From Candidatus Methanoculleus thermohydrogenotrophicum (GTDB taxonomy: Archaea; Halobacteriota; Methanomicrobia; Methanomicrobiales; Methanoculleaceae): 33,380 nt of DNA. The notes under the pieces were generated by a model. The model ran no database searches. It saw only the letters and a list, made by a program, of their open reading frames with translations, and was not told the DNA's origin. Where the stretch lies: the NCBI GenBank assembly GCA_001512375.1, contig LFRN01000211.1, positions 1 to 33,380 on the forward strand, in the 5' to 3' direction. Below, piece by piece: positions 6,610-30,339 of the stretch. Every line of letters starts with the position of its first letter. The first letter of the stretch is position 1. Position numbers and translations under genes: made by a program.

Positions 6610-7782
6610 TCAGACATACATGCGGGCGTCAGGTGTCACTACCTCACGCATCACCTTCTTGATCGCCGCAAAGAAGTCCTCCCGCTCGACGGCCTCGGCA
6701 TCCCGCCGGACCGCCATCATGCCCGCCTCACGGCAGATCGCCTGCAGCTCGGCGCCGGTGGTCTTTCCGGTGAGTTCCGCGATCTCTGCGAGGTCTACAT
6801 CCCCGGCAAGGGTCATCTTCGCGGTGTGGATCTTCAGGATCTCAAGACGTGCTCCAGTATCGGGGAGCGGAATCTGAATGATCCGGTCGAACCGGCCGGG
6901 GCGCAGGAGGGCAGGATCCAGCATATCGATGCGGTTGGTCGCTGCCATAATCCTGACGTTGCCCCGGTTTCCAAACCCATCCATCTCAGCGAGGAGTTGC
7001 ATCAACGTCCGCTGGACCTCTGCGCTGCCAGAGGTCCCGTCATTGGTGCGCATGCTCCCGATTGCGTCGATCTCATCGATGAAGACGATCGCCGGAGCAC
7101 GTTCCCGGGCAAGGACGAAGAGTTCCCGCACAAGTTGCGCGCCTTCTCCGATGTACTTGTGGACCAGTTCACTCCCTGACATCCTGATGAACCGCGCATG
7201 AGACTGGTTGGCGACCGCCTTTGCAATCAGGGTCTTTCCTGTCCCGGGCGGGCCGTAGAGGAGGATACCCTTCGGAGGTTCAACGCCCACGCGCTCATAG
7301 ACTTCGGGTTTCGTGAGCGGGTACTCGACCGCTTCCCTGACCTCCTCGATCTCATCCCTCAGGCCGCCGATCTGCTCAAACGTGACGTCAGGTTGTTCAT
7401 CGAGCTCCATGACCCTGACTCTCGAATCGTAGATATTGCCGATCGTCTTGACGATGGAGAGTGTGTTATTCACCGCCACCTTCATCCCGGGTTTGAGGAT
7501 GCGGTGGAGTTTCTCATTGACCGTGGTGACGTATTCCTGGTTGTTGCCCTGCTGCCGGAGGTATACCTCGCCGTTATCCAGTACGTCAACCACTGCGGCA
7601 ACAAACAGTGGTGTCCGTTTTAACTGACTGTTCTCTTTTCTGAGTTGCAGGAGTTCCTTCTCGAGCAGCTCATTCTTTAGCTTGTAGTCCAGGATCTGCG
7701 CCTTCAGGTCCTGGATCTGGAGTTTGAGCATATCGTGCTCGCTTCCAGGATTGTTGCTAAGGGTTTCGTCCATGTCACTCAT
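6610..7782 (-). CDS. pan: Proteasome-activating nucleotidase (AAA+ ATPase PAN)
   Basis: N-terminal coiled coil, OB-like domain, Walker A GPPGTGKT, Walker B IVFIDEIDAIG, SRH RPGRFDR, and C-terminal HbYX-type tail (MYV). Confidence 0.96.
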   Translation of the reverse strand: MSDMDETLSNNPGSEHDMLKLQIQDLKAQILDYKLKNELLEKELLQLRKENSQLKRTPLFVAAVVDVLDNGEVYLRQQGNNQEYVTTVNEKLHRILKPGMKVAVNNTLSIVKTIGNIYDSRVRVMELDEQPDVTFEQIGGLRDEIEEVREAVEYPLTKPEVYERVGVEPPKGILLYGPPGTGKTLIAKAVANQSHARFIRMSGSELVHKYIGEGAQLVRELFVLARERAPAIVFIDEIDAIGSMRTNDGTSGSAEVQRTLMQLLAEMDGFGNRGNVRIMAATNRIDMLDPALLRPGRFDRIIQIPLPDTGARLEILKIHTAKMTLAGDVDLAEIAELTGKTTGAELQAICREAGMMAVRRDAEAVEREDFFAAIKKVMREVVTPDARMYV

Positions 7783-7812
7783 ATAGTAGGATCCCCAACC
7801 TCATTATAATGT

Positions 7813-8223
7813 GTGATAATGGTTATGAAAGGTAGAGCCATATCGAGGGGTATGGGAACCGGAGAACTTCTTGTTTCACCTGAACCCATATCGTTTCTCT
7901 CGGGCGTCGATCCCGAGACCGGTACCGTCGTGGAGCGGGGGCATCCACTCGAAGGGCAGTCGATCGCCGGGCGCGTGCTGGCTTTTCCGTATGGGAAGGG
8001 GTCAACAGTGGGGTCCTATGTCATCTATGCGCTGAAGCAGAACGGTCTTGCTCCTGCTGCAATCATCAATACAGAGGCCGAACCGATCATTGCGGTTGGG
8101 GCGATCATCGCAGGGATCCCCATGGTTGACCGCCTTCCGCCGGAGTTCTCCCACCTGTCTCCCGGCACCAGGGTGACGGTGAATGGGGATACAGGCGAGG
8201 TCTCCTGTGACGAGACCGGGTGA
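7813..8223 (+). CDS. DUF126 / AcnX small-subunit family protein (phosphomevalonate dehydratase small subunit)
   Basis: MKGRAISRGMGTGELLVSPEPISFLSGVDPETGTVVERGHPLEGQSIAGRVLAFPYGKGSTVGSYVIYALKQNGLAPAAIINTEAEPIIAVGAIIAGIPMVD. Confidence 0.9.
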   Translation: MIMVMKGRAISRGMGTGELLVSPEPISFLSGVDPETGTVVERGHPLEGQSIAGRVLAFPYGKGSTVGSYVIYALKQNGLAPAAIINTEAEPIIAVGAIIAGIPMVDRLPPEFSHLSPGTRVTVNGDTGEVSCDETG

Positions 8224-18513: not shown

Positions 18514-18938
18514 TCATTCATACCCTGTTGGTTTACACGAAGACGTGAAGTCTGTGTGGTTGTTAGCGATCCGTTTCACCCCTTCTTTGAACGTCCCCGC
18601 GCCGGAATTGATTGACAGACGCAGGGGGAGGTGCATCAACCGCAGGTAGGTCAGTACCTGCTTGGAATGAACCGGGGCAATTTTTCGACAGATTTCAGCT
18701 CAACCACCAGACAACCTGCCACCAGTAAATCAACCCGCAGGCCGTCGTTGAAATGTATCCCGTCAAATTCAAACGCCACAGGCTTCTGCTGTTCCACCTG
18801 CAATCCCCGCTTCTCCAGCATGCGTGCAAGGATAGTTTCATAGACCGATTCGAGCAGTCCAGGCCCCAGAACCCGGTGCAAGTGGTACGCCGTATCAACG
18901 ACAACCGCCGAGACCTCTTCCACATTCATAGCACTCAC
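18514..18938 (-). pseudogene. GxxExxY family protein (PD-(D/E)XK-like), single-nucleotide frameshift
   Basis: N-terminal frame MSAMNVEEVSAVVVDTAYHLHRVLGPGLLESVYETILARML...VDLLVAGCLVVELKSVEKLP ends at 18651. Shifting frame in the CCCC tract (~18672) restores (P)VHSKQVLTYLRLMHLPLRLSINSGAGTFKEGVKRIANNHTDFTSSCKPTGYE* ending at 18514. Confidence 0.85.
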
Positions 18939-21386: not shown

Positions 21387-21423
21387 GGTGAACACCCTGC
21401 CCCCCACTAACCCTCTTTTCTCC

Positions 21424-22400
21424 GGTGTCAGTCGTAATCACCGTGCGGGCAACCTCTGCCTGCAACAAGAGTTATTGGGTCCAACAGATATCTCGTGATA
21501 TCACGGGGCATGATCGTCCTGCACGCCCGTGCCCCCCGGGGGCGCTCGGGCGTTTCCACGAACATGGCGGAAACCACCTCCAGGACCCCGATACAGTGCC
21601 CACCACAGCGTCTCGACGACCCGGGGATCCGGTAGGGGGCGCGACCGTTGAACTTTATCCTCCGGTAGAGGGAGATCATCATCAACTGCCGGCGAACGGG
21701 ACGGCGATGAGGAGGAGCAGTGCCGCCGTGATCCGGGAGAAGAACGTCGCGTGGCCGGCATACTTCCCACCGGTTTCGGGTCGGCGCCGCTCAAGGCGCA
21801 AGTATCCCGTAGACCGCAAGCACCCCCGCCGGTGGGTAGAGTGCGCCTGGGGTACCAGATATCAGGGGCGATGCCGTGGTCGGTGCTCAAAGCATCGGGA
21901 GGTTCCAGGCATGGGCGGCGGGCGGACCCGGACGGCACAGGCCACAGCGATGAGGGAGATCGCCACCCGGGGTTGGATGATCGCTTCACCCCTCCGGTAA
22001 TCCAGGTAGAGCGCCGGCAGGAGTTCCGCAAAGACGATCAGTGGCGAAGACCGCGACGCGGCTCATGCCAGGCCGGGGCAAAGGAGGATACCGGAGATAC
22101 CACCGGGCAGGGAGGGACCGAGAGGAACTCCACCATCCCTTCAACGGTGCGGGAACCACCTGGACGACGACCTCGGCTGACCCAGTGAACTCCCCCTTCA
22201 GACCCCCCACGCCAGGTTCGCCCCTCTGGTGGACGTAAAACGCGAGCCTCTCCGTACCAAAATGGGCTTTGCCTGCATGTGAGGGCTCGATGCAACGGAG
22301 TATCCTCCAGCGACCCTGCTGTCCGGATGCTGCACAATCCCGGCTCATACGCCCCTGCGCCTCCAGCCAGGATCCAGAAAGCGGGAGCAGGTATGTGACA
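21424..22400 (-). pseudogene. Decayed coding segment, possibly a former membrane-protein gene
   Basis: Minus-strand fragments in different frames: FYVHQRGEPGVGGLKGEFTGSAEVVVQVVPAPLKGWW (~22240-22130), LPALYLDYRRGEAIIQPRVAISLIAVACAVRV (~22020-21925), KYAGHATFFSRITAALLLLIAVPFAGS* (~21765-21682). Confidence 0.4.
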
Positions 22401-22468
22401 GAGATTAGAACACTCTAATACTTCCAGAAATCCAACATCCATGTAGGTAAATTTTATTAATCATAACA

Positions 22469-23290
22469 ATGATATACTCCAACAATATGGTGGGGGTAGA
22501 CCAGGCCCAGATCGATAAGATACTTGCCGGTGCATCTTCCGACGATCCGGAGGAACGTCTCGACGCACTTGAGAAGGAGCTGGACTTCGTCAAGACGTCG
22601 ATCAAGCGGCTGCTCATCGATCTGCGGGAGCGGATGAACGAACTGGACAACCCGTTCACCAGCGCCGTCACATACACAGGAAATCGGCTCGAGCGGCCGG
22701 ATCTCACCGTTGATGATAAAGATGAGGAGCCCATTCCCGACGATGTGCCCCCACCCGGACTGCAGAAGACCGGGAAGACTGCCGGGGAGCCTCAGAGCCC
22801 GCTCATCGGCAGCCTGGACAGGGGCCTCCTCCCGGAAGAGACTGCAGGCGCCCACATCCCCCTGGGGGGGCTGTCCACGCCCCCGCAGGTAACCCCCCCC
22901 GGAAAACTCAAACTCCAGAGGGTCCACCAGCTCTTTGAGTGGGTGAGCCAGGGGTGCAGAAAATACGGCCACGAGCGCATGACGGCCATGATCGACGCCT
23001 ACTGGTCGATGGGCTACATCGCTGATGAAGCCTCAGACCAGATCCGCGAGATCATGCGGATAGTCCCCGAGACCCGGGGCGACGTCCAGTATATCGGCCC
23101 AAACGAGTTCGTCTCAGAACTCTACGTCTTAAATCGGATCCTCGATCCCGACGATGCGACACTCGACCGGGAGATGATCGAGGTGCTGATGCTCACCCGC
23201 CGCAACCCGGAGAAACAGGACGCCGGAGAACCACCCTCACATGAACGCGATGCCAGCGATACCTGGATCGACCTGCTGGACAGGATATGA
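22469..23290 (+). CDS. arlD: Archaellum accessory protein ArlC/D/E-type (FlaD-like)
   Basis: N-terminal coiled coil, long Pro-rich linker, C-terminal LFEWVSQGCRKYGHERMTAMIDAYWSMGYIADEASDQIREIM, immediately upstream of arlG/F/H/I/J. Confidence 0.85.
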   Translation: MIYSNNMVGVDQAQIDKILAGASSDDPEERLDALEKELDFVKTSIKRLLIDLRERMNELDNPFTSAVTYTGNRLERPDLTVDDKDEEPIPDDVPPPGLQKTGKTAGEPQSPLIGSLDRGLLPEETAGAHIPLGGLSTPPQVTPPGKLKLQRVHQLFEWVSQGCRKYGHERMTAMIDAYWSMGYIADEASDQIREIMRIVPETRGDVQYIGPNEFVSELYVLNRILDPDDATLDREMIEVLMLTRRNPEKQDAGEPPSHERDASDTWIDLLDRI

Positions 23291-23293
23291 TGG

Positions 23294-23797
23294 ATGTCAA
23301 GCGAAGCCTTCACCACAGCGATGTTTCTTATCACCGCCATCATTGCGGCTGGCGTACTCATTAACGCAGTCTTTCCAGTCATCTACACCCTTGCGGGCAC
23401 GATCTCGTCATCCTCCCACAATGTGGACGAACGGTTGAGCACCGACGTAAAGATCGTCACGACATATGCCAGTGGAGAGCGGAAAGAGGTCAGGATCTGG
23501 CTAAAGAACGTCGGAACGTCGAGGATCTCCCCATCAGACATAGGGAAGGCCGACGTCTTCCTCGGGGCCCGGGGGAACTTCACCCGGCTCGGCCTGGTAT
23601 CAGGTACACCGGTATCAAACCAGTGGACCTACGCGATCCTGGAGGATACCCAGAAGAACAACTGCTGGGACCCCGGCGAGACCCTCTACATCCAGGCCCA
23701 TAGTGACTGGATCCCCGAGACAGGTGAGATCGTCTACTTCCAGTTCGTCCTGCCCACAGGAGTTTCACGGTCGACCACCTTCACCGCAGGTACATAG
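23294..23797 (+). CDS. arlG: Archaellum stator protein ArlG (FlaG)
   Basis: MSSEAFTTAMFLITAIIAAGVLINAVFPVIYTLAGTISSSSHNVDERLSTDVKIVTTYASG; FlaG-type N-terminus. Confidence 0.8.
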   Translation: MSSEAFTTAMFLITAIIAAGVLINAVFPVIYTLAGTISSSSHNVDERLSTDVKIVTTYASGERKEVRIWLKNVGTSRISPSDIGKADVFLGARGNFTRLGLVSGTPVSNQWTYAILEDTQKNNCWDPGETLYIQAHSDWIPETGEIVYFQFVLPTGVSRSTTFTAGT

Positions 23798-23799
23798 CC

Positions 23800-24276
23800 A
23801 TGAGCGCGGGACCGCTCGTTGCATCCGGGATCGGCATCCTCCTCCTGGTCGTCACCGCCTACGTCCTGGTCGGCGGCACCCTCGCGACCACCGAAGTGAT
23901 GGTCGAAGCCCAGGGCAACCTCGCCATGTACCAGGAAGCCCGGATGCGGACGGCGATCGAGATCCAGAACACGACCCTGAGCGACCAGACCCTCTCTGTC
24001 GAGGTGAAGAACACCGGGAGCGAACCGATCGTCGACATCCCGCTGATCGACGTCTACCTCTGCATGGGGAACGACGCTCCCGTCTATGTCCCTTACGGGA
24101 AGGAGGATGTGAACTACTGGAACAATGCGGGGATAGACCCGGATCACATCCACCCCGGCCAGCTCGACCCCGGTGAGACCCTCACCCTCTCGATCACCCA
24201 CGAAGACAGCAAAAAACCCACCTGGGTCCAGGTCGTCACCCCGAACGGGGTCTCGAGTTCAACATACATAAGGTGA
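23800..24276 (+). CDS. arlF: Archaellum stator protein ArlF (FlaF)
   Basis: MSAGPLVASGIGILLLVVTAYVLVGGTLATTEVMVEAQ; FlaF-type N-terminus. Confidence 0.8.
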   Translation: MSAGPLVASGIGILLLVVTAYVLVGGTLATTEVMVEAQGNLAMYQEARMRTAIEIQNTTLSDQTLSVEVKNTGSEPIVDIPLIDVYLCMGNDAPVYVPYGKEDVNYWNNAGIDPDHIHPGQLDPGETLTLSITHEDSKKPTWVQVVTPNGVSSSTYIR

Positions 24277-24283
24277 CATAAGA

Positions 24284-25027
24284 ATGGCCATAAGTGAAGA
24301 CGCACAGAGCAGCATCCTCGAGATGCCGGACAAGTCGATCCTCTCGACCGGGAACTCCGAACTCGACAAGAAGATCGCCGACGGCCTCCCGCTCCAGTCA
24401 CTCACGCTCATCGAGGGCGAGAACGACACCGGAAAGAGCGTGCTGACCCAGCAGATCATCTGGGGAGCCTTAAAACAGGGCTTCAACGTCGACCTCTTCT
24501 CGACCGAGAACACGAGCAAGAGTTTCCTCTCCCAGATGGAGTCGATGAGCCTCGATATCTCCGACTACTTCGCCTGGGGCTACCTCCGGATCTTTCCCAT
24601 GCACGTCGTCGGGTTCGAGTGGACACGCGAGAAGATGCAGGGGACCCTCGAACGGATGATCGCCCACATAGAGCAGAGCAAAGCGCAGGTGATCGTCATC
24701 GACTCGCTCACGCTCTTCACCGAGTACGCAAGGCAGGACACGGTCCTGACGTTCTTCACGAACTGCAAAAACCTCGTCGACCACGGCAAGACCATCCTGA
24801 TCACGCTGCACACCTACGCCTTCGTCGAGGACGCCCTCGTCCGTATCCGCTCGATCTGCGACGCTCACCTCTTCATGAAGAAGGCGCTCATCGGCGGCAA
24901 GTACGTCATGATGCTCGAGGTCGTCAAAGTCCGCGGCGCGCGAAAGACCACCGGTAACATCATCAGTTTCGAGGTCCACCCCGGATACGGCATCAAGATC
25001 ATCCCGGTCACAGTTGCGAAGGTGTGA
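24284..25027 (+). CDS. arlH: Archaellum RecA-like ATPase ArlH (FlaH)
   Basis: GNSELDKKIADGLPLQSLTLIEGENDTGKSVLTQQI; VIVIDSLTLF; position before arlI. Confidence 0.96.
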   Translation: MAISEDAQSSILEMPDKSILSTGNSELDKKIADGLPLQSLTLIEGENDTGKSVLTQQIIWGALKQGFNVDLFSTENTSKSFLSQMESMSLDISDYFAWGYLRIFPMHVVGFEWTREKMQGTLERMIAHIEQSKAQVIVIDSLTLFTEYARQDTVLTFFTNCKNLVDHGKTILITLHTYAFVEDALVRIRSICDAHLFMKKALIGGKYVMMLEVVKVRGARKTTGNIISFEVHPGYGIKIIPVTVAKV

Positions 25028-25030
25028 GAC

Positions 25031-26884
25031 ATGGGATCGGCGCTTGAAGCAACGGTAACCCTCCCCTTTGAGCCCGAGCCCATTGATGAGGGGAACGACT
25101 GCTACAACAACGTAGAGTCCTGCGTCCTCTACCGGATGCTCCCGGCAAACGCCCGCGATTATGTCAAGGAGAGTCCCCACCTCCTCGAGTACCTCCACAT
25201 CCTGCCGGTCAACACCGTCGGGATCCCGCTCTTCCTCTCGGAACTGAAACGGGACCTGAAGTCGATGGAGAATCCGAACATCATCTACCCCGTCAGCGAG
25301 ACAACCTTCATCCACATCTTCCCGGACCCCGACGATGTACGGAACTGGTATATCCCGATCGAACCCTCGTTCCTGCACTCCGTAAAAGCGATCCTCCCGA
25401 TGGTCGAGGAGAGACTCATCGACATGATCGACGCCCTCGACGAAGATCCGGTGACCGAGGAGGCACGTATCGAGGTGCTCAGGAACTTCATCCGGCAACT
25501 TGTGTATATCAAGCAACCGGGCGAAGTGATCGATGAATCCCTGCTCGCCGGCGGGACACCAAAAGACCTCAAAGGCCGGATCATAAAATTCCTCACCACC
25601 GATATCGGCGCACCGGCAAAACCCGAGGTGGAAGGGGTCCCGGTACTCGCCGACGGCCGGATCGTCCTCTCGCGGCAGGAGTACACGGCACTCGAGTACC
25701 TGATGGTCCGCGACAAGATTGAGATGGGGGTACTCAAACCCTTCCTCTCCGACCCCTACATCGAGGATATCACCTGCAGCGGCGTCGGACCGATCTTCAT
25801 CGAGCACAAAATCTTTAAGGGTTTAAAATCGGTCGTCGGGTTCCGCGACTCGAAGGAACTCGACAGTTTCGTCATCAAACTCGCCGAGCGGATAAAACGG
25901 CCCCTGACCTACAGAGACCCCATCGTGGACGCGACCCTCCCCGACGGTTCGCGTATCAACATCGTCTACGGGACCGAGATCAGCAAGCATGGCAGCAACT
26001 TCACCATCCGTAAGGTGAGCAAGGTCCCCATGAGTATCATGCAGGTCATCGAGAGCGGGACGTGCGACTACATGATGGCCGCATACCTCTGGATCTGCCT
26101 TGAGTTCGGGATGTCGGTATTCGTCTCCGGAGAGACCGCAAGCGGCAAGACGACGACTTTAAACGCCTTAACGACCTTCCTCCCGCCAGAGAACAAGATC
26201 ATCACCATCGAGGATACACCTGAACTGACGGTCCCCCACAGGAACTGGACCCGTGAGGTCGCGAAAGCCAAGGGAAAGGGCGAGGGCGAAGGCTCTGAGG
26301 TCACGATGTTCGACCTCCTCAAAGCCGCCCTCCGTCAGCGTCCAAACCAGATCCTGGTCGGCGAGATCCGTGGTGTGGAAGGATCAGTCGCGTTCTCCGC
26401 GATGCAGACCGGCCACCCGGTGATGAGCACCTTCCACGCCGCGTCGGTCGAGAAACTGATTCAGCGTCTCTGCGGGGATCCGATCAACATCCCAAAGACC
26501 CACGTCGACAACCTCAACCTGGTCATCATCCAGAGCGCCGTGAAACTCCCCCATGGTGGAACCGTCCGGCGGATGCTCAGCATCAACGAACTCGTGGGCT
26601 ACGATCCCGAGACAGAGGGGTTCTCCTTCATGGCAGCATTTGTCTGGGATCCTGCAACTGACACCTTCACCTTCACCGGCAAGGGGAGCAGTTACCTCCT
26701 CGAGAGCAAGATCGCGACGATGCTCGGCATCCCCGAGAGCCGCGTGGCTGAGATTTACGACGAAGTCGAGAAACGCGCCAGGATCCTCGAGCAGCTCCAC
26801 AAGGCGGGGTACACCCACTTCTGGGACCTCTTCCACATGATCACAAAGATCAAGAGACACGGTCTCCTCGCCATCGAGGTGTGA
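25031..26884 (+). CDS. arlI: Archaellum motor ATPase ArlI (FlaI, type II/IV secretion ATPase)
   Basis: Walker A GETASGKTTTLNAL; IITIEDTPELTVPHRNWTRE; LRQRPNQILVGEIRGVEGSVAFSAMQTGHPVMSTFHA. Confidence 0.97.
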   Translation: MGSALEATVTLPFEPEPIDEGNDCYNNVESCVLYRMLPANARDYVKESPHLLEYLHILPVNTVGIPLFLSELKRDLKSMENPNIIYPVSETTFIHIFPDPDDVRNWYIPIEPSFLHSVKAILPMVEERLIDMIDALDEDPVTEEARIEVLRNFIRQLVYIKQPGEVIDESLLAGGTPKDLKGRIIKFLTTDIGAPAKPEVEGVPVLADGRIVLSRQEYTALEYLMVRDKIEMGVLKPFLSDPYIEDITCSGVGPIFIEHKIFKGLKSVVGFRDSKELDSFVIKLAERIKRPLTYRDPIVDATLPDGSRINIVYGTEISKHGSNFTIRKVSKVPMSIMQVIESGTCDYMMAAYLWICLEFGMSVFVSGETASGKTTTLNALTTFLPPENKIITIEDTPELTVPHRNWTREVAKAKGKGEGEGSEVTMFDLLKAALRQRPNQILVGEIRGVEGSVAFSAMQTGHPVMSTFHAASVEKLIQRLCGDPINIPKTHVDNLNLVIIQSAVKLPHGGTVRRMLSINELVGYDPETEGFSFMAAFVWDPATDTFTFTGKGSSYLLESKIATMLGIPESRVAEIYDEVEKRARILEQLHKAGYTHFWDLFHMITKIKRHGLLAIEV

Positions 26885-28485
26885 CGTTGTTTGAGGACGT
26901 AACCGAACGACTGCGGCAGGCGAACCAGGGCAGGATGCCGTTTGAAGACCAGATAGAGTACCTCAAAGGCCTCCGTTCATCCATCCTCGAGAACAAGAAG
27001 ATGGAGCAGGACCTGCTCTTCATGTACACCTACATGGCCGCCATCACCACGGCAGCCGTGACCAGGCCCGAGATCTTCGAATATACATCCGAGAGGTTCG
27101 AGTACGTCCCGTCGCGCTACATTGCAAAGGCCCAGCGCCTGGTCGCTGGATGGGGCTACAGTTACGCTGAAGCGCTCCGGGCGGTTGCTGAGCGGTGCAG
27201 GAACAAGACCCTTCAGAGCATGCTGAACCGCTATGCAAACTCCATCGACGCCGGGGTTCCCGACGACGACTTCATCACCACGGAACTCGAGAGCATCAGG
27301 AGTATTTACAGAAACACGTTCGAGCAGGGGATCGAGCTCCTGAAGAAATGGGGCGACGCCTACATCGCGATGCTCCTATCGGCCGCGCTCGTCGCGATCA
27401 TTATCATGATATCGGTGGCGATCTACGCCCCTGGTGGGATAGGTGCGGCGCTCAATACCGCATACCTCCTCATCATCGGCATATCGGTCTTCGGCCTTGC
27501 GATCATGTACCAGGCTGTCCCCGACGACCCGAGGACGCACGGGCTTACCACGATCTGCTCCAGGGAGCAGCGCATCATCCGGAGATGGGAGCGCCTGATC
27601 TTGCCGACCGTCTTCGCAATCACGCTTATTCTTATCCTGATCGGCGCCAACGCCGGCGTTATATTCCTGATCGTTGGCCTGCTCCTGGTGCCCCTCGGGA
27701 TCATCGGCTACATCGACGATACCAACGTCATCAACCGTGACACCGACTTCGCCACGTTCATCCGCAGCCTCGGGTCAGTGATGGGGAGCAGGGGCATCAC
27801 CACTGGCGATGCTCTTCAGGAAGTGGACAAAAAATCCCTCCCTCATCTGGAACCGTTCATAGACTCGGTATCGTCGAGACAGAACCTGGGGCTCGATGAA
27901 ACGGGGAGCTGGAGGAAGTTCATCGGGGAGACCGGCAGTTACCTGGTCTACAAGTACATGAACATCTTCCGTGACGCAGTGGCCCTCGGCGGCTCCCCTG
28001 ACGAGATAGGAAAGATCACCGGTTCGTCGATGCTCGAGCAGGTTCTCCTCAGGAGGAAACGCGACATGATGGCGAAGGGGTTTGTCGTCCTGCTCGTGCC
28101 AATGCACGCGGCGATGATCGGGATCTTCGTCTTCCTCTTCGAGATCCTGCTTTCGATGTCCCACGCGATAACGAAAGTGATGAGCCATTTTGCGGAGACC
28201 TCGGCAGCACTCACAGGGGGGTCGTCCACGATCGGCGGCAGCATGGCGATGTCCTTAAACCTCTTCGTAGACTTCCCTGAAGATACGATGCGGGCCTACG
28301 TGGTGACGATCCTCTTAATGCTGACCATTGCAAACATTCTTGCAGGAAAGATCGTCATGGGCGGCGACCGGTACATATATTACCTCTTCACAAGCCTGCT
28401 CTGCGCGGCTACCGGCATCATCTATATCGTTGCACCGTTCATCGTGAGCGCATTCTTTACCATTCCAGTATTTACGGGGATATAG
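26881..28485 (+). CDS. arlJ: Archaellum membrane platform protein ArlJ (FlaJ)
   Basis: Polytopic T2SF-type protein with duplicated domain directly after arlI (GTG start overlaps the arlI stop). Confidence 0.95.
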   Translation: MTLFEDVTERLRQANQGRMPFEDQIEYLKGLRSSILENKKMEQDLLFMYTYMAAITTAAVTRPEIFEYTSERFEYVPSRYIAKAQRLVAGWGYSYAEALRAVAERCRNKTLQSMLNRYANSIDAGVPDDDFITTELESIRSIYRNTFEQGIELLKKWGDAYIAMLLSAALVAIIIMISVAIYAPGGIGAALNTAYLLIIGISVFGLAIMYQAVPDDPRTHGLTTICSREQRIIRRWERLILPTVFAITLILILIGANAGVIFLIVGLLLVPLGIIGYIDDTNVINRDTDFATFIRSLGSVMGSRGITTGDALQEVDKKSLPHLEPFIDSVSSRQNLGLDETGSWRKFIGETGSYLVYKYMNIFRDAVALGGSPDEIGKITGSSMLEQVLLRRKRDMMAKGFVVLLVPMHAAMIGIFVFLFEILLSMSHAITKVMSHFAETSAALTGGSSTIGGSMAMSLNLFVDFPEDTMRAYVVTILLMLTIANILAGKIVMGGDRYIYYLFTSLLCAATGIIYIVAPFIVSAFFTIPVFTGI

Positions 28486-28486
28486 C

Positions 28487-29488
28487 ATGAAAGAAAATAT
28501 ACGCCGGCCGCTCCTGTTCCTGATCACCGTCGGTACGGGTACTCTGATCATCATCTTCGATGCCCCGATCGAGGTCATCGTCGCAGGCACCGTGCTCGTG
28601 GGGTTTTGCACGCTTATCATCACCGGGGCGGTGAAGATTGCTGACTTAAAACCCTCAAATCTGCGCGCCGCGCTCCGGGAGCGGCCGAAGGGGAATGAGA
28701 AGGGAGAATCAGATACGGTAGCGCCGAAATCCTCTCTTACCAGCATGTTCGGAACTCTCACGGCATCGGTCAGGGAAGCGATCACGCACGTCCGTGCCCC
28801 TGAAAGCGAGAAGAAGAGAACGATCGAGGAGATCGATGCCATGCTCGACCAGGCGATCGACGGCTCGGCCCCTCCGAAGACCGCCGGAGGCGCTGTCGAC
28901 CCCCTCGCTGCACTCGCAGACCTCGACCTCAACTCCCTGGAAGACCTCGACCTCGATGAGGCAACCAGACCAGGGGCAGCGTTCGGATCAGACCAGTTTT
29001 CTTCCCTCTCCGGGGCAGAGGCAGACGTCGTATCAGAGATCCTCAGGGCGCATCAGAGCGAGACCGACGATCCCGGCATCGGCTTCGCCGAGGGCTCCGG
29101 AGCCACCGCAGGCCTCTCAGGACTGCCTGACCTGAGTGCGCTGAGCGCAGAACTCTCCGAACTCGACGACCTGGATCTCGACGAGATCGAGATCGAGATC
29201 GAGGGCGAGGATGTTGATGATGAAGAGATGGATGTGGATGAGCCTGCCCGGGCGCAAGAGGCCCCAGATGAGCCGATCGATCATCCAGAAGAAGACTTCG
29301 ATATAGTCTCCTTCGCATCCGGCGGCATGGTCGATGACGACCTGATTGTCGCGCTCAAATCAGACGTAAAGAAGAAGAGAAAGAAGTATGTGGAGGATAT
29401 CAGCCTGCTCCGCGAGCTCCAGGGAGAGAAATACGATGCAAGAGAACTTGCTGCAGAGCTCGAGGAGATTCTTGCAATGCTAAAATAA
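28487..29488 (+). CDS. Uncharacterised membrane-anchored acidic protein in archaellum operon
   Basis: Two N-terminal hydrophobic segments (LLFLITVGTGTLIIIF, VIVAGTVLVGFCTLIITGAV), long Asp/Glu/Leu-rich region, C-terminal helix KSDVKKKRKKYVEDISLLRELQGEKYDARELAAELEEILAMLK. Confidence 0.9.
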   Translation: MKENIRRPLLFLITVGTGTLIIIFDAPIEVIVAGTVLVGFCTLIITGAVKIADLKPSNLRAALRERPKGNEKGESDTVAPKSSLTSMFGTLTASVREAITHVRAPESEKKRTIEEIDAMLDQAIDGSAPPKTAGGAVDPLAALADLDLNSLEDLDLDEATRPGAAFGSDQFSSLSGAEADVVSEILRAHQSETDDPGIGFAEGSGATAGLSGLPDLSALSAELSELDDLDLDEIEIEIEGEDVDDEEMDVDEPARAQEAPDEPIDHPEEDFDIVSFASGGMVDDDLIVALKSDVKKKRKKYVEDISLLRELQGEKYDARELAAELEEILAMLK

Positions 29489-29517: not shown

Positions 29518-30339
29518 ATGACGATGATGAAATCCGTTCCAGTGAAGGTCGAGCATGATGGCAGGTGGGTCTCGACGACGATGGGCATCGGTAAGGACCG
29601 TATCCGTATCGGTGCTCCTCTTGACCGCGAGATCCTCTATAAATCCATGGTCGATCTTGAGGAGAGGAAGAACCAGGTGACGATCACAACCGGTTCAGAT
29701 GAGGCAGTGGAGACCTTCCGCATCGCCTCGGTGGAGAAGGTCCTCTCGGTCTTAAAGAAGTTCATCATCACTCAGTGCAGCGCCTACCGGCTGAATGCCT
29801 TCTTCATGTCACCCGCGATCCGCGGGGGGGTGCTCGTCAAGGACGCCCGATGGGAGAAAGGTGCGATCGCTGTCATGAAGACCGGCATCTGGTTCGTCAG
29901 CCAGGAGAACCAGGTCTGCATATCCCTGGGAGACGTCGCAGGCATCGAGTTCACACGCCGGGAGATCCAGGGGAAGGATCTCGATGTCGTGAAGATTGAT
30001 CACCTCATCGAGAACGAGGTCGTGACAAGTTTTGTCCTCTGCCCAAAGACAACACTCCAGGTCCTCTATAACTTCCTCAAAGAGGCAACACAGAACTCAG
30101 CATATGAAGGAGAGCTCGATCCGCTGACCGGGCAGGTGGCCATGCTGGTCTACAGCGGGATGGACTCAAGTAACATCGAGAACATGCTCCAGCTCTCGCA
30201 CAAAGATCTCGACGCCATCTATGAATACCTCATCAACGCAGGGTTTGCCGAGGTTCTCTATGTCAGGAGAGAGATACAACTGACCGCTAAAGGCGTCCGG
30301 TATATCTCCGATTCAATGAAATCTCCAACCAGCGAGTGA
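29518..30339 (+). CDS. cheF: Chemotaxis-archaellum adaptor CheF (DUF439)
   Basis: N-terminal KVEHDGRWVSTTMGIGKDRIRI...; C-terminal winged-helix-like; position between arlJ block and cheY. Confidence 0.85.
   Translation: MTMMKSVPVKVEHDGRWVSTTMGIGKDRIRIGAPLDREILYKSMVDLEERKNQVTITTGSDEAVETFRIASVEKVLSVLKKFIITQCSAYRLNAFFMSPAIRGGVLVKDARWEKGAIAVMKTGIWFVSQENQVCISLGDVAGIEFTRREIQGKDLDVVKIDHLIENEVVTSFVLCPKTTLQVLYNFLKEATQNSAYEGELDPLTGQVAMLVYSGMDSSNIENMLQLSHKDLDAIYEYLINAGFAEVLYVRREIQLTAKGVRYISDSMKSPTSE

Follow-up and report, generated by a model that had tools for sequence, protein, structure and literature searches.

The window, 33,380 nucleotides of DNA from Candidatus Methanoculleus thermohydrogenotrophicum, carries archaellum (arl) genes that run from a ring gene of the ArlC/D/E type to arlJ and on to cheF. 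Between arlJ and cheF lies the gene analyzed here, which we call X (Table 1). The preliminary description of the locus placed a 333-aa ORF one nucleotide past the arlJ stop and ahead of cheF, and the coordinates agree: the arlJ stop codon is at 28483-28485, X begins with ATG after a 1-nt gap, and 29 nt separate its end from the start of cheF. That only one ArlC/D/E-type gene is present is likewise true of the genome as assembled (89% complete), in which PF04659 has a single, sub-threshold match, inside the ring-gene ORF. Elsewhere in the window, about 1.1 kb between the second archaellin gene and the ring gene (21387-22468) holds no convincing gene, and the minus strand carries a short, apparently truncated 95-aa ORF (18651-18938) resembling a PDDEXK_3 (GxxExxY-type) nuclease.

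Table 1. Gene X, its predicted features, and the neighboring archaellum and chemotaxis genes, in positions of the window
Feature	Position	Strand	Basis
Sole ArlC/D/E-type ring gene, soluble, no TM	22469..23290	+	PF04659, E 0.003
ArlG then ArlF (named by fla2 gene order)	23294..24276	+	PF01917; order as in fla2 clusters (PMC1914349)
arlH and arlI	24284..26884	+	PF06745 and PF00437
arlJ (platform protein), immediate upstream neighbor of X	26881..28485	+	PF00482; orthologue searches
X (333-aa membrane-tethered acidic protein, tether predicted)	28487..29488	+	ORF, translation; orthologues across order and phylum
TM helix 1 of X (aa 3-23), predicted	28493..28555	+	Hydropathy; AlphaFold helix, pLDDT about 81-86
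TM helix 2 of X (aa 28-46), predicted	28568..28624	+	Hydropathy; AlphaFold helix, pLDDT 81-86
Predicted helix with recurring IDxxLDxxV segment (aa 106-124)	28802..28858	+	Alignment, AlphaFold model
Linker motif S2, VSEILRAHQ (aa 176-192)	29012..29062	+	Alignment; leave-family-out motif score
Acidic region with LDDLDLDEIEIEIE (aa 217-272), mostly disordered by prediction	29135..29302	+	Alignment, model
C-terminal module (aa 273-333), conserved core, two helices	29303..29485	+	Identity, phylum-wide recognition, models
cheF, immediate downstream neighbor of X	29518..30339	+	PF04283, 4.8e-14

Hydropathy places two hydrophobic segments in X, at about residues 7-26 and 28-50. AlphaFold, given a 28-member family alignment, returned a confident TM hairpin and an equally confident pair of C-terminal helices, at 282-311 and 318-332 (pLDDT about 80-90); between them it placed two short helices, at 106-124 and at 176-192, and otherwise mostly disorder. 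The linker is acidic (47 D/E vs 4 K/R over residues 130-290), and the C-terminus (residues 290-333) is of mixed charge (10 D/E and 11 K/R). Hydropathy, charge counts, and model together confirm the architecture first read from the letters: two N-terminal hydrophobic segments, a long acidic region, and a helical C-terminus. The best-conserved regions are the TM segments and the C-terminal module (consensus DDLIxxLKxDV...DxSLLRxLxG...AxxLAxELExIL), the latter, with a mean identity of 37% within the order, ranking first among the regions compared. Conservation of the linker is low. The N-terminus is basic, a short acidic loop (DAPIE) precedes TM helix 2, and a basic segment follows it. From these flanking charges we infer that both ends of X are cytosolic, which would place the linker and the C-terminal module in the cytosol. 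Single-TM relatives from other lineages have a near-neutral to acidic N-terminus and usually a basic segment past the TM helix, and over hairpin and single-TM members alike the charges around the helices agree, for the most part, with a C-terminus in the cytosol.

The preliminary description called the protein uncharacterized, and the family annotation that could have contradicted it was absent from Pfam, NCBIfam, and the PDB: X and its relatives have no Pfam or NCBIfam match above the curated cut-off, sequence search found no PDB relative, and neither X nor its C-terminal fold gave a significant Foldseek match. PF04659 matched none of 28 family members, and a single member touches PF05377, at E 0.067 only. 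Weak matches of some members to V-SNARE, LapA, SDE2, CcmI, and other Pfam or NCBIfam families were treated as chance because they fall below curated cut-offs or are inconsistent among members. A search of the text of open-access literature found no account of the gene; Figure 2 of one study may draw it as an unnamed 'hypothetical' (PMC1914349). X appears to represent a family for which no earlier description was met among the Pfam, NCBIfam, and PDB entries compared.

To follow X through the Methanomicrobiales, we relied on profile searches of whole genomes; a protein query against contigs of close-relative genomes gave no match. Among 100 genomes of the order, a profile of the C-terminal module detected X in 80, and profile searches detected arlJ in 83 and CheF in 74. 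Every X-bearing genome has arlJ, and X was found in none of the 17 without it (Fisher p 1.7e-16, with the relatedness of the genomes uncorrected); one match to the X profile, at E = 0.025 inside a 1025-aa frame (G094), was left out of the count. Only three genomes have arlJ alone, and each case involves a contig end: in G063 and in G073 the contig stops after the 5' half of X, and in G110 arlJ itself is cut. Most of the loci read share one gene order: ring gene, arlG, arlF, arlH, arlI, arlJ, X, cheF, cheY, cheB, cheA. The gene's absence from the arl loci of related species, a result foreseen as telling against the proposal, was not seen, X being present in essentially every arlJ-bearing genome. 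Most genomes of the genus have orthologues at 56-75% identity, and all other arlJ-bearing families have more distant ones. We conclude on these comparative grounds that the ORF is real rather than a chance one, because it has one-to-one orthologues at 56-75% identity and occupies the same place in every arlJ-bearing family of the order.

Three loci depart from the usual form. Some 1.7 kb of inserted DNA with a 388-aa transposase-like ORF interrupts X of G037 (L086, 4447-7640), whereas the arl and che genes nearby appear undamaged; motility in this natural mutant would be informative. A frame change in the linker breaks X of G050 (L035, 7951-9212; a single-contig genome matching Methanoregula boonei in size, 2,542,943 bp), reflecting either a sequencing error or a real loss. 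At a distance of about 12 kb from its full-length X gene, G340 has a second, 90-aa copy of the C-terminal module (L084, 6186-6458).

Beyond the order, in further classes of the phylum, the profile matched proteins some 200-370 aa long that are encoded directly after arlJ, most of them with one N-terminal TM helix. We found the C-terminal module in this position in Archaeoglobi, in Methanocella-, Methanococcoides-, and Methanosarcina-type loci, and in the f12 genomes (the X-bearing genomes presumably include Archaeoglobus fulgidus, A. profundus, Methanocella arvoryzae, and Methanococcoides burtonii), and nine independently fetched Methanosarcina or Methanosarcinaceae loci have X after arlJ. In G246, a single-contig archaeoglobal genome of 2,076,931 bp that we take to be A. 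sulfaticallidus, X sits inside the arl operon, flanked by arlH and arlI. X was absent from the crenarchaeal, thaumarchaeal, Chloroflexota, Woesearchaeota, and Thermoplasmata loci examined, and from the Halobacteria loci and other fla1-type loci read, one of which has cheF directly after arlJ. Two further fla1-side arrangements were noted: a fla1-type archaeoglobal locus (L210 of G182, 6914-8119) encodes a HEAT-repeat-like protein between arlJ and cheF, and three haloarchaeal loci (L193, L197, and L198) have a MinD-type ATPase gene directly after arlJ, where fla2 loci have X.

Archaellum clusters have been divided into fla1 and fla2, and those of Methanosarcina split into fla2A and fla2B (PMC1914349). 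In the loci read, X is present in euryarchaeal fla2-type and absent from fla1-type clusters, and the X-bearing loci correspond to fla2A. Two genomes that hold both cluster types give an internal control for this pairing: in G284, X accompanies the fla2 arlJ (L171) but not the second arlJ (L207), and G292 has two arlJ matches and one X. The second (fla2B) type in Methanosarcina encodes, after arlJ, an acidic protein without a TM segment, and profile comparison gave a 93% match between the C-terminal ~55 residues of this protein and the module of X (unrelated controls <1%). The f10/f24 candidates also have a C-terminal module and no TM segment; taken alone, their module is a weak match to that of X (16-40%). 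Since the TM-less fla2B homologues keep the C-terminal module, we regard the module as the core of the family and the TM anchor as lineage-specific, as judged from these profiles. The idea that all TM-less homologues reach the membrane through an amphipathic N-terminus was rejected, the helix being convincing in only 1 of 11.

The preliminary description proposed a membrane-tethered adaptor between the motor and CheF/CheY. Its structural part stands, with a predicted membrane tether, a predicted cytosolic acidic tail, and conservation in the arl locus; the link to CheF/CheY as the defining role is not supported. Six X-bearing genomes of the order lack a CheF match, two of them 98% complete with CheW/CheA genes elsewhere, and G246 keeps X without CheF and without CheW, so that no phyletic dependence of X on CheF appeared in these genomes. 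Outside the order, cheF is often several kilobases from X or elsewhere, and in Archaeoglobi X tracks arlJ. This retention of X without CheF, and in one case without CheW as well, argues that its core role is in the motor and not in chemotaxis. Within the order, the six members without CheF retain both the TM hairpin and the C-terminal module; their linkers are shorter or carry fewer acidic residues, and no (V/I)xxILxAH motif was detected there. Motif z scores were -1.7 to 2.1 in all six compared with a median of 4.2 in 59 CheF-bearing members (models were trained without the tested family, the seed and motif having been picked after the alignment was viewed). Because the ArlI+ArlJ tree contains only two independent CheF losses, this dependence of the linker on CheF is not significant, and in its strict form we rejected it, the motif also being missing from some CheF-bearing members. 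We regard the correlation as a suggestive lead, and a secondary chemotaxis contact through the linker as possible. A FliM-like CheY-docking motif was likewise rejected (EEIDAMLD, which we take to resemble the bacterial FliM N-terminal peptide): three CheF-less genomes (G038, G053, and G058) retain IDxxLD, and some members with CheF do not have it. The position of X between arlJ and cheF in most of the order, along with these motif scores, would suit a protein that holds CheF/CheY-P at the membrane, close to the switch ring, and serves mainly in signal transfer to the motor. However, given the CheF-less genomes, the distance of cheF from X in Archaeoglobi, and the use of CheF by haloarchaeal archaella that have no X, we consider that main role unlikely.

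Other roles near the motor fit some of the same features. X could anchor or position the motor, and perhaps the chemosensory array, at the pole or polar cap without a part in torque or switching, as would suit a disordered, acidic, membrane-anchored tail with short motifs. MinD4 is linked to archaellum positioning in Haloferax, and the haloarchaeal MinD-type genes just after arlJ offer a positional parallel, although this may be chance. X pairs strictly with arlJ rather than with polarity factors and no homology to positioning proteins was found. This polar function ranks just below the signal-transfer role in our estimate. Still less probable, in our judgment, is a chaperone-like assembly factor that stabilizes ArlJ or loads ArlI/ArlH during biogenesis and stays outside the finished motor; the 1-nt gap to arlJ in the window, the place of X after arlJ in nearly all loci read, and the combination of a small C-terminal motif with a disordered linker would accord with it, but many other archaella assemble without such a factor. 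The poorly conserved linker, together with the insertion in G037 and the frame break in G050 at loci that are otherwise intact, could even indicate a neutral hitchhiker or a mis-called ORF in the archaellum operon. We find this highly improbable, as X has been retained in several classes, where its C-terminal motif and TM segment are conserved, and its co-occurrence with arlJ is essentially complete.

We tentatively favor, at a little under an even chance, a different reading, in which the archaellum motor encoded by euryarchaeal fla2-type clusters has X as a constitutive accessory subunit that acts as a membrane tether or scaffold. X occurs nearly always with one class of archaellum motor, even where chemotaxis is lacking, and so is probably a missing part of that motor. 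In the lineage of the window, the N-terminal TM hairpin, with both ends in the cytosol, would fix the protein in the membrane; the long, disordered, acidic linker would extend into the cytosol; and the two-helix C-terminal module would dock on a cytosolic part of the motor, be it the loops of ArlJ, ArlI/ArlH, or the soluble ArlC/D/E-type ring. X would thereby tether and position the ring and the ATPase at the membrane, something that crenarchaeal ArlX would do through its own TM segment and that lies beyond the TM-less ArlC/D/E proteins, so that a topology like that of ArlX would be combined with an unrelated sequence. In species with archaellum-linked chemotaxis, one may speculate that the linker also holds docking motifs. 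The most specific version, a core fla2 subunit that is the membrane anchor of the ring, binds the motor through its C-terminal module, and has had its linker recruited as a chemotaxis docking arm, is improbable as a whole. Tethering is also unlikely to be a universal need: the fla2B-type homologues and the f10/f24 candidates have no TM segment, and euryarchaea of the fla1 type are able to swim although their ring is soluble and X is absent, so that a separate tether is not generally required.

Recent reviews describe ArlC/D/E proteins as having no membrane tether and treat the anchoring of the euryarchaeal motor as unsettled (PMC8978795, PMC12024892). X is a concrete candidate for the anchor of the ring: it has a predicted membrane tether, accompanies arlJ in several classes, has no relationship to ArlX, and appears independent of chemotaxis. 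It would also refine the fla1/fla2 division, in that euryarchaeal fla2 clusters hold a component without a counterpart in fla1 and crenarchaeal clusters, and it is relevant to the proposal that fla2 was transferred from crenarchaea (PMC1914349).

Among known archaellum components, CheF (PF04283) resembles X in place, being encoded next to it in the Methanomicrobiales, and connects CheY-P with the ring (PMC9126983). It is soluble and consists of PH-like domains and a CheY-binding tail, whereas X has TM segments and no such fold, and profile comparison found no similarity between the two. The stators ArlF and ArlG are membrane-anchored and encoded in the same operon, as is X; their archaellin-like domains lie outside the membrane, whereas X has a tail predicted to be cytosolic and no PF01917 match. 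ArlC/D/E (PF04659, PF05377) are, as X would be, cytosolic motor-associated proteins of the same operon, and were rejected as homologues at a profile similarity of 0.1-0.4%. Each X locus already has its own ArlC/D/E-type gene, the product of which has no TM segment (the one apparent exception, L184, is an over-long start).

A further parallel is ArlX (FlaX), the crenarchaeal cytosolic ring protein, which assembles into rings of about 30 nm in width and interacts with ArlH/ArlI. In Sulfolobales-type loci ArlX has an N-terminal membrane anchor and a cytosolic remainder, an arrangement that X shares in its predicted topology. ArlX candidates of the Desulfurococcales/Sulfolobales type (L096, L098, L099, L100, L103, and L159) are mostly without a TM segment and share an N-terminal WxCxCxxCRxxxHP-like cysteine motif. 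As a homologue of ArlX, X was rejected: hhalign of X or its C-terminal module with two ArlX alignments gave 0.3-3.7%, while in the same set-up the positive control, ArlX with the ring protein of X loci, gave 96.4%, in agreement with an earlier HHpred report (PMC4858521). ArlX is encoded in a fla2-type cluster and has been proposed as a motor scaffold (PMC8978795); it sits between arlB and arlG, whereas X coexists with the ring protein and follows arlJ.
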